From NCBI GenBank assembly GCA_946481225.1, contig CAMLNJ010000087.1, positions 1-9,085 of the forward strand: a stretch of 9,085 nucleotides of DNA, read 5' to 3'. Source of the stretch: an uncultured Verrucomicrobiota bacterium (lineage in GTDB: Bacteria; Verrucomicrobiota; Verrucomicrobiae; Opitutales; Opitutaceae). A program made the translations under genes and the position numbers. This document shows positions 1 to 7,432 of the stretch, piece by piece (position 1 is the stretch's first letter; each line of letters starts with the position of its first letter). Under the pieces are notes generated by a model, which ran no database searches, was not told where the DNA came from, and was given only the letters and a program-made list of their open reading frames with translations.

Positions 1-1362
1 CGCACCGCCGAGACCTGCAACGTCTACAACATGCTCAAGTTCGCGCGCACCCTCTTCGCCCTGCGCCCCGACGCGAAATACGCCGACTTCGAGGAACGCG
101 CCCTCTTCAACCACATCCTCGCATCCATCGATCCGCAGGACGGACGCACCTGCTACATGGTTCCCGTCGGCCGCGGCGTCACCCGCGAGTATCAGGACAT
201 GTTCGACGGCTTCACCTGCTGCGTCGGCTCCGGCATGGAGAGCCACGCGCTCCATGGCGACGGCCTCTACCACGCCTCCGCCGACGGCGATAAACTCTGG
301 GTCAACCTCTACGCCCCCTCCACCGCCGAGTGGGCGAAGCGCGGCGCGAAGCTCGCCGTCGCCACCGATTTCCCCGAGGGCGAATCCGCCACGCTCAAGC
401 TCTCCCTCGCATCCCCGCAAAAATTCACCCTCGCCCTCCGCCGCCCCTCCTGGGCGGAGAAAGGCTTCGCCGTCTCGCTCAACGGCAAGGCCCTCCCCGA
501 CCCGAAGCTCGTCGCCGGCTACGTCGAGCTGACCCGCGAGTGGCGCGACGGCGATCAGGTCGCGCTCACCTTCCCGAAAACCCTCCGCGCCGAGCCTCTC
601 CCCGACAACCCGCGTCGCGTCGCGCTCCTCTGGGGCCCGCTCGTCCTCGCCGGCGACCTGGGCCCGGAGGATCGCCAAGCCGCCACCGCCGCCCGCCCGC
701 CCGTGTTTGTCACGGACGAATCCGATCTCTCTTCCTGGCTCCGCCCCGTCGCCGACCGTCCGGGCGTCTTCCGCAGCATCGGCGCCGGCCGCGAGCAGGA
801 CGTGGAACTCTCGCCCTTCTACCGCCTCCACCGCCGCACCTACGCCGTCTATTGGGACCTCTTCACCGGAGCCGAATGGGAGGCCCGCTCCGCCGAACTC
901 GCCCGCGAGGCCGAGGCTCAACGCCGCCTCGAGGCCGCCACCGTCGCCTACGCCCAGCCGGGCGAGATGCAGCCCGAGCGCGACTTCAACCAGCAGGGCG
1001 AAAACACCTCGCCCGAGCGCACGATGGGACGCGCCGGCCGTCGCGGCACCAAGTGGTTCTCCTTTGACCTGCCGGTCGACGCCGGCCAGCCCGCCGCGCT
1101 CGTCGTCACCTACTGGAACGACGAGTGGCGCAAGCGGACCTTCGAGGTCCTCGTCGACGGCGCCCGCATCGCCGAACAAACGGTCGAGAAGGGCGGCGAA
1201 CCCCGCTTCTTCGACGTCCGCTACGTTCTCCCCGCCGACCTCGTCGCCGGAAAACAAAAGGTGACCGTCCGCTTCCAAGCGACCAACGGAAACGAAATCG
1301 CCGCCGTCTATGGACTGCGCAGCATCCGCTCCGCCTTGGCCACAGAAGAACCCACGAAATGA
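1..1362 (+). CDS. GH127 (DUF1680) beta-L-arabinofuranosidase-like glycoside hydrolase, 5' partial
   Basis: The reading frame is open from the first base, so this is the C-terminal part (453 codons) of a longer protein, and the true start lies upstream. Family members hydrolyse terminal beta-L-arabinofuranosyl residues with a zinc-held cysteine as nucleophile. The matching residues are visible: Glu and Cys of ETCNVYNMLKF (nt 10-18) and the Cys-Cys pair of FTCCVGSGMESH (nt 217-222), corresponding to the Glu/Cys/Cys/Cys zinc site of the characterised Bifidobacterium enzyme HypBA1. A beta-sandwich region follows (about nt 290-660). Next come a segment resembling DUF4986 ending at SPFYRLHRRTYAVYWDLF (about nt 600-870) and a C-terminal module like DUF6805 with YWNDEWRKRTFEVLVDG (about nt 950-1340). 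The stop overlaps the next gene's start by 4 bp, implying coupled translation. The substrate is uncertain, since the family also acts on pectic arabinan. Any signal peptide would be outside the window. Confidence 0.88.
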   Translation, partial: RTAETCNVYNMLKFARTLFALRPDAKYADFEERALFNHILASIDPQDGRTCYMVPVGRGVTREYQDMFDGFTCCVGSGMESHALHGDGLYHASADGDKLWVNLYAPSTAEWAKRGAKLAVATDFPEGESATLKLSLASPQKFTLALRRPSWAEKGFAVSLNGKALPDPKLVAGYVELTREWRDGDQVALTFPKTLRAEPLPDNPRRVALLWGPLVLAGDLGPEDRQAATAARPPVFVTDESDLSSWLRPVADRPGVFRSIGAGREQDVELSPFYRLHRRTYAVYWDLFTGAEWEARSAELAREAEAQRRLEAATVAYAQPGEMQPERDFNQQGENTSPERTMGRAGRRGTKWFSFDLPVDAGQPAALVVTYWNDEWRKRTFEVLVDGARIAEQTVEKGGEPRFFDVRYVLPADLVAGKQKVTVRFQATNGNEIAAVYGLRSIRSALATEEPTK

Positions 1363-2570
1363 GCCCGACATTCGCCGACATCCAAGCCGCCGAGAGCCGC
1401 ATCCGCGAACGGGTGTCCGCCACACCCTGCGTCCGCTCGGCCACCCTCTCGGCGATCACCGGCGCGGAGGTCTTCCTCAAGTTCGAGAACCTCCAGTTCA
1501 CCGCCTCCTTCAAAGAGCGCGGCGCCCTCAACAAACTCCTCCTGCTCTCGCCCGAGGAGCGCGCGCGCGGCGTCATCGCCATGTCCGCCGGCAACCACGC
1601 CCAGGGCGTCGCCTATCACGCGAAACACCTCGGCATCCCGGCCGTGATCGTGATGCCCCGCCACACGCCCGACGTGAAGGTCGAGCACACGCGCGGCCAC
1701 GGCGCGGAGGTGATCCTCCACGGCGAAAATCTACACGAGGCCGCCGCCTTCGCCCGCGCGACGTGCAAGGAACGCCGCCTGGTCTTCGTCCATCCCTACG
1801 ACGACCCCGAGGTCATCGCCGGCCAAGGCACGCTCGCCCTTGAGATGCTCGCCCAGCAACCCTCGCTCGACACCCTGATCGTCCCCATCGGCGGCGGCGG
1901 CCTCCTCGCCGGCATGGCCGTCGCGGCGCACGCGCTCAAACCCTCGCTCGAGCTGATCGGCGTCCAGTCCGACCGCTTTCCCGCCATGGCCGCACGCCTC
2001 CGCGGCGAGACGCTCGAATGCGCGCCCTACACCGTCGCCGAGGGCATCGCCGTGAAGGAGCCCGGCGAACTCACCACCGCCCTCCTCCGCGAACTCGTGC
2101 GCGAGGTGATCCTCGTGTCCGAGCGCGAGATCGAAGACGCGATCCTGTTGCTCCTCCAGATCGAGAAAACCGTCGTCGAGGGCGCCGGCGCCGCCGGTCT
2201 CGCGGCCCTGGTCCGGCAAAAAGACCGCCTGCGCGGCCGCAAGGTCGGTCTCGTCCTCAGCGGCGGAAACCTCGACCTCTTCAGCCTCTCCTCGATCATC
2301 CAGCGCGGCCTCGTGCGCGGCGGCCAAATCGTCAGCCTGCGCGTGGAAACCCGCGACGTGCCCGGCGCTCTGGCCGAGGTGTCGGCCCTGATCGGCCGCG
2401 GCGGCGGCAACATCATCGAGGTCCACCACCAGCGGACCTTCGCCGACCAGCCGCTCCAAACCGTGGCGATCGATTTTCTCCTGCGCACGCGCGGCCCCAG
2501 CCACTCCGAGCAGATCATCGCCGCCCTCCGCGCCGGCGGCTGCCGCGTGAGCCCGACGACGGGCGTGTAG
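1359..2570 (+). CDS. ilvA: Threonine (serine) ammonia-lyase, PLP-dependent, with C-terminal ACT domain
   Basis: This 403-residue enzyme should deaminate L-threonine to 2-oxobutanoate, and probably L-serine to pyruvate, in the cytoplasm. The fold-type II PLP signatures are in order. The Schiff-base lysine is in SFKERGA (Lys52), the substrate loop is SAGNHAQG (76-83), the tetraglycine phosphate loop is GGGGL (178-182), and the PLP-ring motif is SGGN (301-304). Residues about 325-400 form one ACT domain (SLRVETRDVPGALAEVSALI). Length and single ACT domain fit the medium form (about 400 residues), not the 510-residue two-ACT biosynthetic enzyme. The ATG at 1359 is chosen because it makes an ATGA overlap with the upstream glycosidase and places the family N-terminus correctly. 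An in-frame upstream extension would lie inside that gene. A weak AGAAGAA purine run precedes the start. It could serve isoleucine synthesis or catabolism; the sequence does not decide. The stop codon lies in a palindromic repeat. Confidence 0.92.
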   Translation: MSPTFADIQAAESRIRERVSATPCVRSATLSAITGAEVFLKFENLQFTASFKERGALNKLLLLSPEERARGVIAMSAGNHAQGVAYHAKHLGIPAVIVMPRHTPDVKVEHTRGHGAEVILHGENLHEAAAFARATCKERRLVFVHPYDDPEVIAGQGTLALEMLAQQPSLDTLIVPIGGGGLLAGMAVAAHALKPSLELIGVQSDRFPAMAARLRGETLECAPYTVAEGIAVKEPGELTTALLRELVREVILVSEREIEDAILLLLQIEKTVVEGAGAAGLAALVRQKDRLRGRKVGLVLSGGNLDLFSLSSIIQRGLVRGGQIVSLRVETRDVPGALAEVSALIGRGGGNIIEVHHQRTFADQPLQTVAIDFLLRTRGPSHSEQIIAALRAGGCRVSPTTGV

Positions 2571-6506: not shown

Positions 6507-7432
6507 GTTATCCCCCAGCAAAATGGATCTCTCTCCTCGAGCAGCAGCGTCGCCTCGAGGTTGACGTAGGCGCGACCGGCGATGGTCGGCGCGATCTCGC
6601 CCTTGGCGCGGTCGAGCCAGCGATAACGTCCGGTGAAGGCGCTGCCGATGATGCTCTCCTGCACCCACTCATCCCCCTCGGCCAGTTTTCCTTCCGCCGC
6701 GAGGCAGGCGAGCTTGGCGCTCGTGCCGGTGCCGCAGGGCGAGCGATCATAGGCGCCGCCGGGGCAGAGCACGAAATTACGCGAATGCGCCCCCGCGTTC
6801 GGCGACGGGGCGGACAACTCGATGTGGTCCACATCGGGATAGCCCGCGGCGTTGAGCGCGCGCCGCACGCGCCAACTGTAATCTGTCAGCTCGGCGACCT
6901 CGCTCAGCCGCAGCTCGCGTCCGTGCTCGTCGATCAGGAAAAACCAATTGCCGCCCCAGGCGATGTCGCCGGTCACGCGGCCCACGCCCGGCACCTCGAC
7001 CGTGACGGCGTGATGCACGCGGCGGCTGGGCACGTTGGCCACGCTCACCGAACCGTCGGCCTCGAGCGTCGCCGTGACGACCCCGACGGGCGTTTCCAGA
7101 CGATGCGAGCCCGGCCCGATCCGGCCGAGATAAGCCAGCGTCGCGATCACGCCGATCGTCCCGTGCCCGCACATGCCGAGATAGCCGACGTTGTTGAAAA
7201 AAATGACGCCCGCCGCGCAGGTCGCATCGGTCGGCGGCGTAAGCAAGGCTCCCACGACCACGTCCGAACCACGCGGCTCGTTCACGACCGCGGACCGATA
7301 GCGGTCGAAGCGCGCGCGAAACACGTCGCGGCGCTCCGCCAGCGAGCCCGCGCCCAGCTCCGGCCCGCCCTCGATCACCACGCGGGTGGGCTCGCCGGCG
7401 GTGTGGGAGTCGATGATCTTTATTTTCTGCAT
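6503..7432 (-). CDS. 4-hydroxyproline 2-epimerase (proline racemase family)
   Basis: The 309-residue enzyme should interconvert trans-4-hydroxy-L-proline and cis-4-hydroxy-D-proline, the first step of the pathway (called HypRE or LhpA elsewhere). Proline racemase family members use two active-site thiols. Both are present: Cys88 in GMCGHGTIG and Cys233 in DRSPCGTGTSAK. This Cys/Cys pattern separates epimerases and racemases from trans-3-hydroxy-L-proline dehydratases, which replace the second Cys with Thr. The GNWFFL segment (161-166) and the length of about 310 residues are typical of 4-hydroxyproline epimerases; proline racemases tend to be longer. The start at 7432 (MQKIKIIDSHTAGEPTRVV) matches the family N-terminus. 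A GTG at 7459 would add nine residues and is less likely. It is the first gene of the operon, divergent from the PAS-AraC regulator with 92 bp between, and translationally coupled to the dehydrogenase through ATGA. Proline racemase activity is the main alternative. Confidence 0.9.
   Translation of the reverse strand: MQKIKIIDSHTAGEPTRVVIEGGPELGAGSLAERRDVFRARFDRYRSAVVNEPRGSDVVVGALLTPPTDATCAAGVIFFNNVGYLGMCGHGTIGVIATLAYLGRIGPGSHRLETPVGVVTATLEADGSVSVANVPSRRVHHAVTVEVPGVGRVTGDIAWGGNWFFLIDEHGRELRLSEVAELTDYSWRVRRALNAAGYPDVDHIELSAPSPNAGAHSRNFVLCPGGAYDRSPCGTGTSAKLACLAAEGKLAEGDEWVQESIIGSAFTGRYRWLDRAKGEIAPTIAGRAYVNLEATLLLEERDPFCWGIT

Follow-up and report, generated by a model that had tools for sequence, protein, structure and literature searches.

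Does a beta-L-arabinofuranosidase gene that lies next to an operon for hydroxyproline (Hyp) catabolism work together with it, or do the two stand side by side by chance? Plant walls are rich in extensins and related glycoproteins, whose hydroxyprolines bear arabinose. The question is raised by a stretch of 9,085 nucleotides from an uncultured Verrucomicrobiota bacterium of the Opitutaceae (GenBank assembly GCA_946481225.1, contig CAMLNJ010000087.1), the whole of which is called the window here. The original prediction, made from the sequence alone, proposed a possible locus for hydroxyproline-rich glycoproteins (HRGPs) such as extensin. As judged from the sequence comparisons below, the balance leans slightly towards the window being a version of such an HRGP (extensin-like) utilisation locus. 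We hold this functional link at little above an even chance because in its home phylum only this one instance of the pairing has come to light to date.

Window genes were assigned through Pfam, NCBIfam and PDB sequence searches, and gene content, families and catalytic residues are direct observations. The glycosidase fragment scored above the Pfam cut-offs for PF07944, PF20736 and PF20620 and reached 29.4 for PF16375 (cut-off 29.5). Its PDB matches were 5opj (210 bits), 8k7x (132 bits) and 3wkw (36 bits), and a full-length relative, P0002 (80% identity over 86% of the fragment), matched the same entries with 425, 210 and 35 bits. We take these entries to be BT0349 (GH146), Bll3HypBA1 and HypBA1 (GH127), partly on the basis of excerpts of PMC10850190, as their names in the PDB are vague. 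By these similarities the window glycosidase is on the GH146 side, kin to BT0349 and Bll3HypBA1, and the scores rule out membership of GH127 (HypBA1 type). The analogy to HypBA1 on which the original prediction was built was therefore drawn to the wrong family. The zinc-cysteine site that it had noticed is real: residues E4, C6, C73 and C74 of the fragment (the zinc-binding Cys3-Glu set with the nucleophile Cys) align with those of BT0349, the best PDB match. The position of the acid/base Glu would fall upstream of the window and was observed in relatives only. Aceric acid hydrolase was rejected as an identity for the enzyme (NF049879, 69 bits versus a cut-off of 950). GH146 takes in enzymes active on arabinofuranose (Araf)-beta-Hyp, namely XeHypBA1 and Bll4HypBA1, as well as BT0349, acting on arabinan oligosaccharides, and Bll3HypBA1, acting on beta-1,3 linkages in arabinogalactan protein (AGP) and arabinan (PMC10850190, excerpts). 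Since the family spans both kinds of enzyme, membership alone leaves the substrate undecided. The hydrophobic N-terminus of P0002, judged by eye, suggests that the enzyme is probably secreted.

The operon holds all four superfamilies of the bacterial pathway: an epimerase, an enzyme of the flavin adenine dinucleotide (FAD) D-amino acid dehydrogenase type, a dihydrodipicolinate synthase (DHDPS)-family protein and an aldehyde dehydrogenase (ALDH). These match the trans-4-hydroxyproline pathway described in excerpts of PMC4113996, and thus the operon is complete, as had been proposed. Best models for the epimerase were NF052296 (423 bits, cut-off 450) and PRK13970 (419 bits, cut-off 442), both narrowly missed, and it scored 420 bits against PDB entry 2azp. 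Its C88 and C233 correspond to the Cys88/Cys236 pair reported for a 4-hydroxyproline 2-epimerase (4HypE; PMC4113996, excerpts). A trans-3-hydroxyproline (t3Hyp) dehydratase was rejected because the Cys/Cys pair is present and the models give 183 and 133 bits versus cut-offs of 540 and 550. The FAD dehydrogenase, whose gene overlaps that of the epimerase, reached 288 bits for PRK00711 (below the cut-off of 383) and at most 59% identity to copies in surveyed Hyp operons. For the ALDH, with its catalytic Cys in FCTKPG, identity to such copies was at most 61% and no specific NCBIfam model scored above cut-off. The DHDPS-type protein reached up to 77% identity, in the Hyp operon of locus L005; this and the nearest epimerases (72% and less) come from Verrucomicrobiota-type genomes. 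Among the 120 epimerase loci of the survey described below, all four genes were present in 36 and in the window's order in 24, and a divergent PAS-AraC regulator stood less than 1 kb from the epimerase in 15. From its placement, the regulator likely controls the Hyp operon. The surroundings of 69 Verrucomicrobiota-type Hyp loci had recurrent members, often of a housekeeping kind: a threonyl-tRNA synthetase (ThrRS)-like synthetase near 17, cysS near 16, aspS near 12, an ammonium transporter near 10 and gatB near 7, and also an amidase, indicating a conserved chromosomal place.

Approached from the glycosidase side, the pairing recurs, and this is directly observed. A relative of the window-type GH146 enzyme lies 1.4-18 kb from a 4-hydroxyproline epimerase in five genomes of Acidobacteriota, Bacteroidota and Alphaproteobacteria (Granulicella, G851, G871, Spirosoma and Novosphingobium, with G855 counted as Granulicella), and dipeptidyl peptidase IV (DPP IV)-type peptidases stand near the pair in four of the five. 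Counted by locus, an enzyme of the window's GH146 clade and an epimerase share a neighbourhood in the window, L168, L169, L176, L178 and L179. Part of this material came from a translated plasmid search with P0002, which returned 264 records; 12 neighbourhoods were examined. On Granulicella tundricola plasmid pACIX901 (about 365-406 kb), GH146 is followed by genes for an ALDH, an epimerase, an FAD oxidoreductase, a 2Fe-2S protein, an FAD/NAD oxidoreductase and a DHDPS. The proline racemase-family gene there scored best with 4HypE models, at 404 bits (under the cut-off of 442), and the region also holds DPP IV, two DUF885 and two M1 genes, a cyclophilin, aminopeptidase P and a second GH127-type protein. 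A Spirosoma oryzicola plasmid (about 138-156 kb) carries two GH127-annotated genes, of which the clade member lies 1.4 kb from an epimerase (PRK13971, 593 bits, cut-off 376), accompanied by an FAD oxidoreductase, DHDPS, AraC, SusC/SusD, an amino acid permease and DUF885. In Novosphingobium sp. RL4, which is unannotated and was read by translated search, GH146 stands with a lactate/malate dehydrogenase-like (Ldh_2-type) gene, DUF885, DPP IV, DUF5695 and DHDPS, the epimerase being 8.7 kb away. On three Sphingomonas plasmids (L162-L164), GH146 is joined by DUF885 and a gene of the Ldh family, plus DHDPS or DPP IV depending on the plasmid; the Ldh superfamily includes pyrroline-2-carboxylate reductases (PMC4113996, excerpts). 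An M1 peptidase and SusC/D accompany GH146 in Hymenobacter volaticus, two plasmid loci have arabinan/xylan-type neighbours, and the other plasmid neighbourhoods held no marker or were unannotated without a marker match.

A sample of genomes, less biased than the plasmid search, gave similar cases. We drew 191 Acidobacteriia genomes evenly and took GH146 loci from 19 of the 39 matches listed, and seven of the 19 group in the window's clade. We then searched for PF05544, the epimerase family, in those seven genomes plus G388 and, for comparison, in five genomes that carry the other type of GH146. Three of the seven clade genomes, G855, G851 and G871, had a full-length match (333-341 bits), linked to GH146 in all three at 2.0, 17.9 and 16.8 kb, respectively; G851 and G871 are near kin and not independent. 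In G851 and G871 the intervening genes encode DUF885, DPP IV, a permease, DUF5695, DHDPS and an FAD oxidoreductase. PF05544 gave weak part-length matches (27-29 bits) in G780, G894 and G838 and no match in G727 or G388. Two of the five comparison genomes had a full-length PF05544 protein, on another contig than GH146, where the GH146 contigs measure only 10.5 and 41 kb and distant linkage is possible.

Two protein families of poorly described function accompany GH146 in these loci. DUF885 (PF05960) was found near it in eight of nine Hyp-linked loci, plus L177 (the set being L162-L164, L168, L169 and L176-L179), and possibly acts as a peptidase on Hyp-containing peptides. DUF5695 (PF18951) occurred in six of the nine, in Sphingomonadaceae and two Acidobacteriia genomes, with weak matches (23-24%) in L181 and L185; it is a candidate enzyme in glycoprotein breakdown.

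All Hyp-linked loci belong to one branch of the family. Our tree comprised 77 GH146 loci (the window, 45 from Verrucomicrobiota samples, 19 from Acidobacteriia, 11 from plasmids and one from G717) together with 10 relatives from the database; for a second tree, BT0349, Bll3HypBA1 and a pair of GH127-type rows were included as well, XeHypBA1 and Bll4HypBA1 not being among the rows. Among the first 120 proteins listed for a Sphingomonas query, most of them unnamed, none bore a Xanthomonas name. The window and every Hyp-linked locus fell into a clade of 30 rows (20 loci and 10 relatives) with support of 99 and 98 in the Shimodaira-Hasegawa-like approximate likelihood ratio test (SH-aLRT) from a quick search. 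BT0349 and Bll3HypBA1 were placed outside this clade, the row of the latter being partial, short and long-branched, and the two GH127-type rows (one with PF20737) split from all GH146 rows with support 100. Within about 9 kb, 7 of the 20 clade loci were Hyp-linked versus none of the 57 outside (Fisher test, P=3e-5), and 6 of 19 versus 0 of 57 with the window excluded (P=1e-4); these tests are uncorrected for kinship, and the four Sphingomonadaceae and G851/G871 are not independent. Longer flanks of G851 and G871 raised the count to 9 of 20, the remaining flanks being unextended for this count. On the tree the nine-locus label required four changes versus a shuffled mean of 8.6, and none of 500 shuffles was as low. 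DUF885, DPP IV or M1 markers were found in 10 of the 20 clade loci versus 3 of the 57 outside. The nearest tree relative of the window among Hyp-linked loci is Granulicella. The joint extensin/Hyp role that the original prediction proposed from co-location is thus partly supported, on other grounds: recurrence on the GH146 side and confinement to a single clade. That GH146 members acting on Araf-beta-Hyp have been published (PMC10850190, PMC6085000) adds to this.

The survey from the hydroxyproline side gave a different result. We assembled 120 epimerase loci from the best 80 of 569 relatives, 15 loci of an order sample (177 genomes, 21 matched, 16 strongly, of which one was already in the set) and 25 of a phylum sample (387 genomes, 35 matched). 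No pair of their epimerases was more than 95% identical, many loci were from Verrucomicrobiota, and 76 of the 120 had 7 kb or more on each flank. GH146 was found in the available flank of none of the 120, with a profile that does recover the window fragment and two control loci. In the 387 phylum genomes, an epimerase was present in 35 (E<=1e-60) and a GH146 match in 39 (E<=1e-45); both occurred in four genomes versus 3.5 expected, and none were linked (1.45 and 2.0 Mb apart in G246 and G598, on separate contigs in G005 and G564). One genome of the order sample, G124, carries a weak GH146-like match (36%, 144 bits) some 37 kb away from its epimerase, and a second, stronger match on a different contig. 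PF07944 proteins are common in general, being present in 16 of 18 genomes with Hyp loci. Taken alone, this survey suggests chance adjacency, and chance was our initial verdict, with no GH146 near Hyp operons and co-occurrence at expectation; it was revised because of the plasmid search and the neighbourhoods. The pairing looks unique within the Verrucomicrobiota sampled and recurs in other phyla. Conservation of the neighbourhood, whose absence the original prediction had counted against itself, all but fails within the home phylum, and the pairing recurs in some bacteria of three others.

If the adjacency is accidental, GH146 would trim beta-arabinofuranose of pectic arabinan or arabinogalactan, and the Hyp operon would independently use free or collagen-derived Hyp. 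This account we regard as a serious one that nevertheless falls well short of an even chance. It gains from the Hyp-side counts above, from the convergent blocks with a palindrome between them, and from the best PDB match, BT0349, being described as a member of a rhamnogalacturonan I (RG-I) locus (PMC10850190, excerpts). Several further observations weigh against a glycoprotein locus. Eleven of the 20 clade loci lack a Hyp marker even with longer flanks, and the clade's remaining four loci from Verrucomicrobiota, none of which has a Hyp marker, lie beside genes such as dnaK/groEL, suf or an AMP-ligase. Counting the epimerase only and excluding the window, 3 of 19 clade loci versus 0 of 57 are linked (P=0.014). 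The Hyp label of L162-L164, three of the seven linked loci, rests on Ldh_2, plus DHDPS in L163, with no epimerase within the flank examined and no specific NCBIfam model over cut-off for these Ldh_2 genes, and in Sphingomonas sp. R1 rhamnogalacturonan-degrading genes adjoin the GH146 locus. Peptidase markers occur outside the clade too, in L184, L186 and L191, the first two with DPP IV- and DUF885-type matches, and Pfam revealed no peptidase or transporter gene among the genes of the 9-kb window. The kinship mentioned above counts on the same side. What speaks against accident is that the pairing recurs in three other phyla and is confined to the window's clade, which excludes both BT0349 and Bll3HypBA1.

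The gene between the two blocks allows another arrangement. As originally described, a single gene separates glycosidase and operon and the blocks are convergent; it encodes a threonine ammonia-lyase, and the convergent orientation makes the GH146-lyase block and the Hyp operon separate transcription units. The start codon of the lyase shares bases with the stop codon of GH146 (ATGA), so that GH146 and lyase are probably one transcription unit. Scoring covered the best 6 or 11 candidates of each genome; on that basis this lyase type was uncommon, a match at E<=1e-100 occurring in 1 of 288 phylum genomes and one at E<=1e-80, with 43-49% identity, in 13 of 159 order genomes. Its rarity in the sampled Verrucomicrobiota suggests horizontal gain or wide loss. 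The two genes could form one glycoprotein catabolic unit in which the sugar is removed and serine/threonine deaminated, leaving Hyp to the operon. The overlap and the rarity of the lyase fit this, but the lyase was missing from all 120 epimerase loci and from the 76 remaining GH146 loci, and threonine ammonia-lyase also serves isoleucine synthesis. We therefore consider such a unit quite improbable; the lyase may deaminate serine/threonine from the same glycoprotein or be a passenger.

Under the preferred reading of an HRGP utilisation locus, a secreted GH146 beta-L-arabinofuranosidase would remove Hyp-linked arabinofuranose from an extensin-like glycoprotein. This would open the polypeptide to prolyl-type peptidases encoded beyond the window. 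Released trans-4-hydroxy-L-proline would be epimerised to cis-4-hydroxy-D-proline, which would be oxidised and then deaminated to alpha-ketoglutarate semialdehyde (KGSA). Oxidation of KGSA would yield alpha-ketoglutarate, the four-gene operon presumably being under the divergent PAS-AraC regulator. Here we infer the GH146 substrate, its secretion, the flux between the blocks and the regulation.

The features are collected in Table 1. The two palindromes, of the repetitive extragenic palindromic (REP)-like kind, resemble each other (25-26-nt arms, GTAGC...GCTAC, nested short palindromes), and a loose form of their pattern recurred once in L112 and once in L131 when 166 sequences were scanned. 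A promoter/terminator scan between the blocks found a single terminator-like site, inside the lyase gene, and was uninformative. A chimeric window was considered and is unsupported by GC content, which is 0.66-0.73 in 500-base steps. Three genes in 2634-7432, those for the ALDH, the FAD dehydrogenase and the epimerase, nevertheless use codons differently from the GH146, lyase, DHDPS and regulator genes. Judged by eye from a motif, the reading frame that starts at the end of the window resembles U32 collagenase-like peptidases.

Table 1. Features of the window and, below them, DUF5695 proteins of other GH146 loci, with positions in the locus named (aa, amino acids; ORF, open reading frame; Pyr4H2C, pyrroline-4-hydroxy-2-carboxylate)
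Feature	Position	Strand	Basis or remark
GH146-type beta-L-arabinofuranosidase, C-terminal part (453 aa)	1..1362	+	Pfam, PDB matches, catalytic residues, trees; N-terminus beyond window
Threonine ammonia-lyase (PRK07334 type)	1359..2570	+	NF005600 610 bits, cut-off 496; PALP Pfam match
Imperfect palindrome, REP-like, 26-nt arms	2565..2629	.	separates convergent blocks; possible insulator
Aldehyde dehydrogenase, presumed KGSA dehydrogenase of Hyp pathway	2631..4214	-	PF00171; role from context
Second REP-like palindrome	4233..4297	.	within Hyp operon
DHDPS-family protein, presumed Pyr4H2C deaminase	4310..5221	-	PF00701; K168
FAD D-amino acid dehydrogenase type, presumed cis-4-hydroxy-D-proline dehydrogenase	5250..6506	-	PF01266
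4-hydroxyproline 2-epimerase with Cys88/Cys233 pair	6503..7432	-	NCBIfam/PRK models, PDB 2azp, residues
Divergent PAS-AraC regulator, likely controlling Hyp operon	7525..8298	+	Pfam
Possible toxin-antitoxin pair	8363..8853		70-aa ORF without Pfam match, then ParE-type toxin
ParE-type toxin	8554..8853		Pfam
Start of further ORF	8909..9085		no Pfam match on 59 aa
DUF5695 protein, L164	3565..6306
DUF5695 protein, L162	935..3547
DUF5695 protein, L163	6000..8603
DUF5695 protein, L169	2696..5341
DUF5695 protein, L242	2296..4860
DUF5695 protein, L243	12931..15495

A wider proposal follows, which we put forward tentatively and judge somewhat short of an even chance. The GH146 clade may consist mainly of Hyp-O-beta-L-arabinofuranosidases anchoring a cross-phylum kind of locus, hitherto undescribed, that consumes HRGPs whole (sugar, peptide and Hyp), where DUF885 and DUF5695 proteins would often supply peptidase or glycosidase functions that have gone unrecognised; the window would be the Verrucomicrobiota form, with a serine/threonine ammonia-lyase added. 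If true, the GH146-Hyp unit would show how bacteria use the carbon and nitrogen of wall glycoproteins. It would also provide a sequence marker for the trait, a substrate prediction for one GH146 branch and pointers to the functions of DUF885 and DUF5695.

The HypAA-HypBA2-HypBA1 systems of Bifidobacterium longum and Xanthomonas euvesicatoria share a PF07944-type beta-L-arabinofuranosidase with the window (PMC6085000, PMC10850190, excerpts). XeHypBA1, which cleaves Ara-Hyp, is filed under GH146 (PMC10850190, excerpts), and a prolyl oligopeptidase pseudogene adjoins xehypAA (PMC10850190, PMC6085000, excerpts). Unlike these systems, the window has no GH121 or GH43 gene. Its partner is instead a Hyp catabolic operon, and the excerpts of PMC6085000 and PMC10850190 mention none for the known systems, the word 'racemase' being absent from PMC6085000. 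BT0349 (5opj) and Bll3HypBA1 (8k7x) have the family, domain order and catalytic residues of the window enzyme, yet both lie outside its clade. The known bacterial trans-4-hydroxyproline pathway (4HypE, cis-4-hydroxy-D-proline (c4Hyp) oxidase, DHDPS-type deaminase and KGSA dehydrogenase) has all four superfamilies and the Cys/Cys epimerase in common with the window, whereas the neighbours named in excerpts of PMC4113996 are pathway enzymes and transport systems and no glycosidase. Our searches of open-licence full texts, which leave out most subscription journals, listed no report of GH146 or GH127 joined with Hyp catabolism. The Granulicella and Spirosoma loci add peptidases and a second GH127-type gene, and in Spirosoma SusC/D, none of which was seen in the 9-kb window. 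Like the window, they combine Hyp catabolism (complete in Granulicella, near-complete in Spirosoma, where no ALDH is listed) with an enzyme of the GH146 clade. Enzymes for Hyp-arabinosides have been described before, as has the Hyp pathway; their joining in one locus is new as far as we searched.

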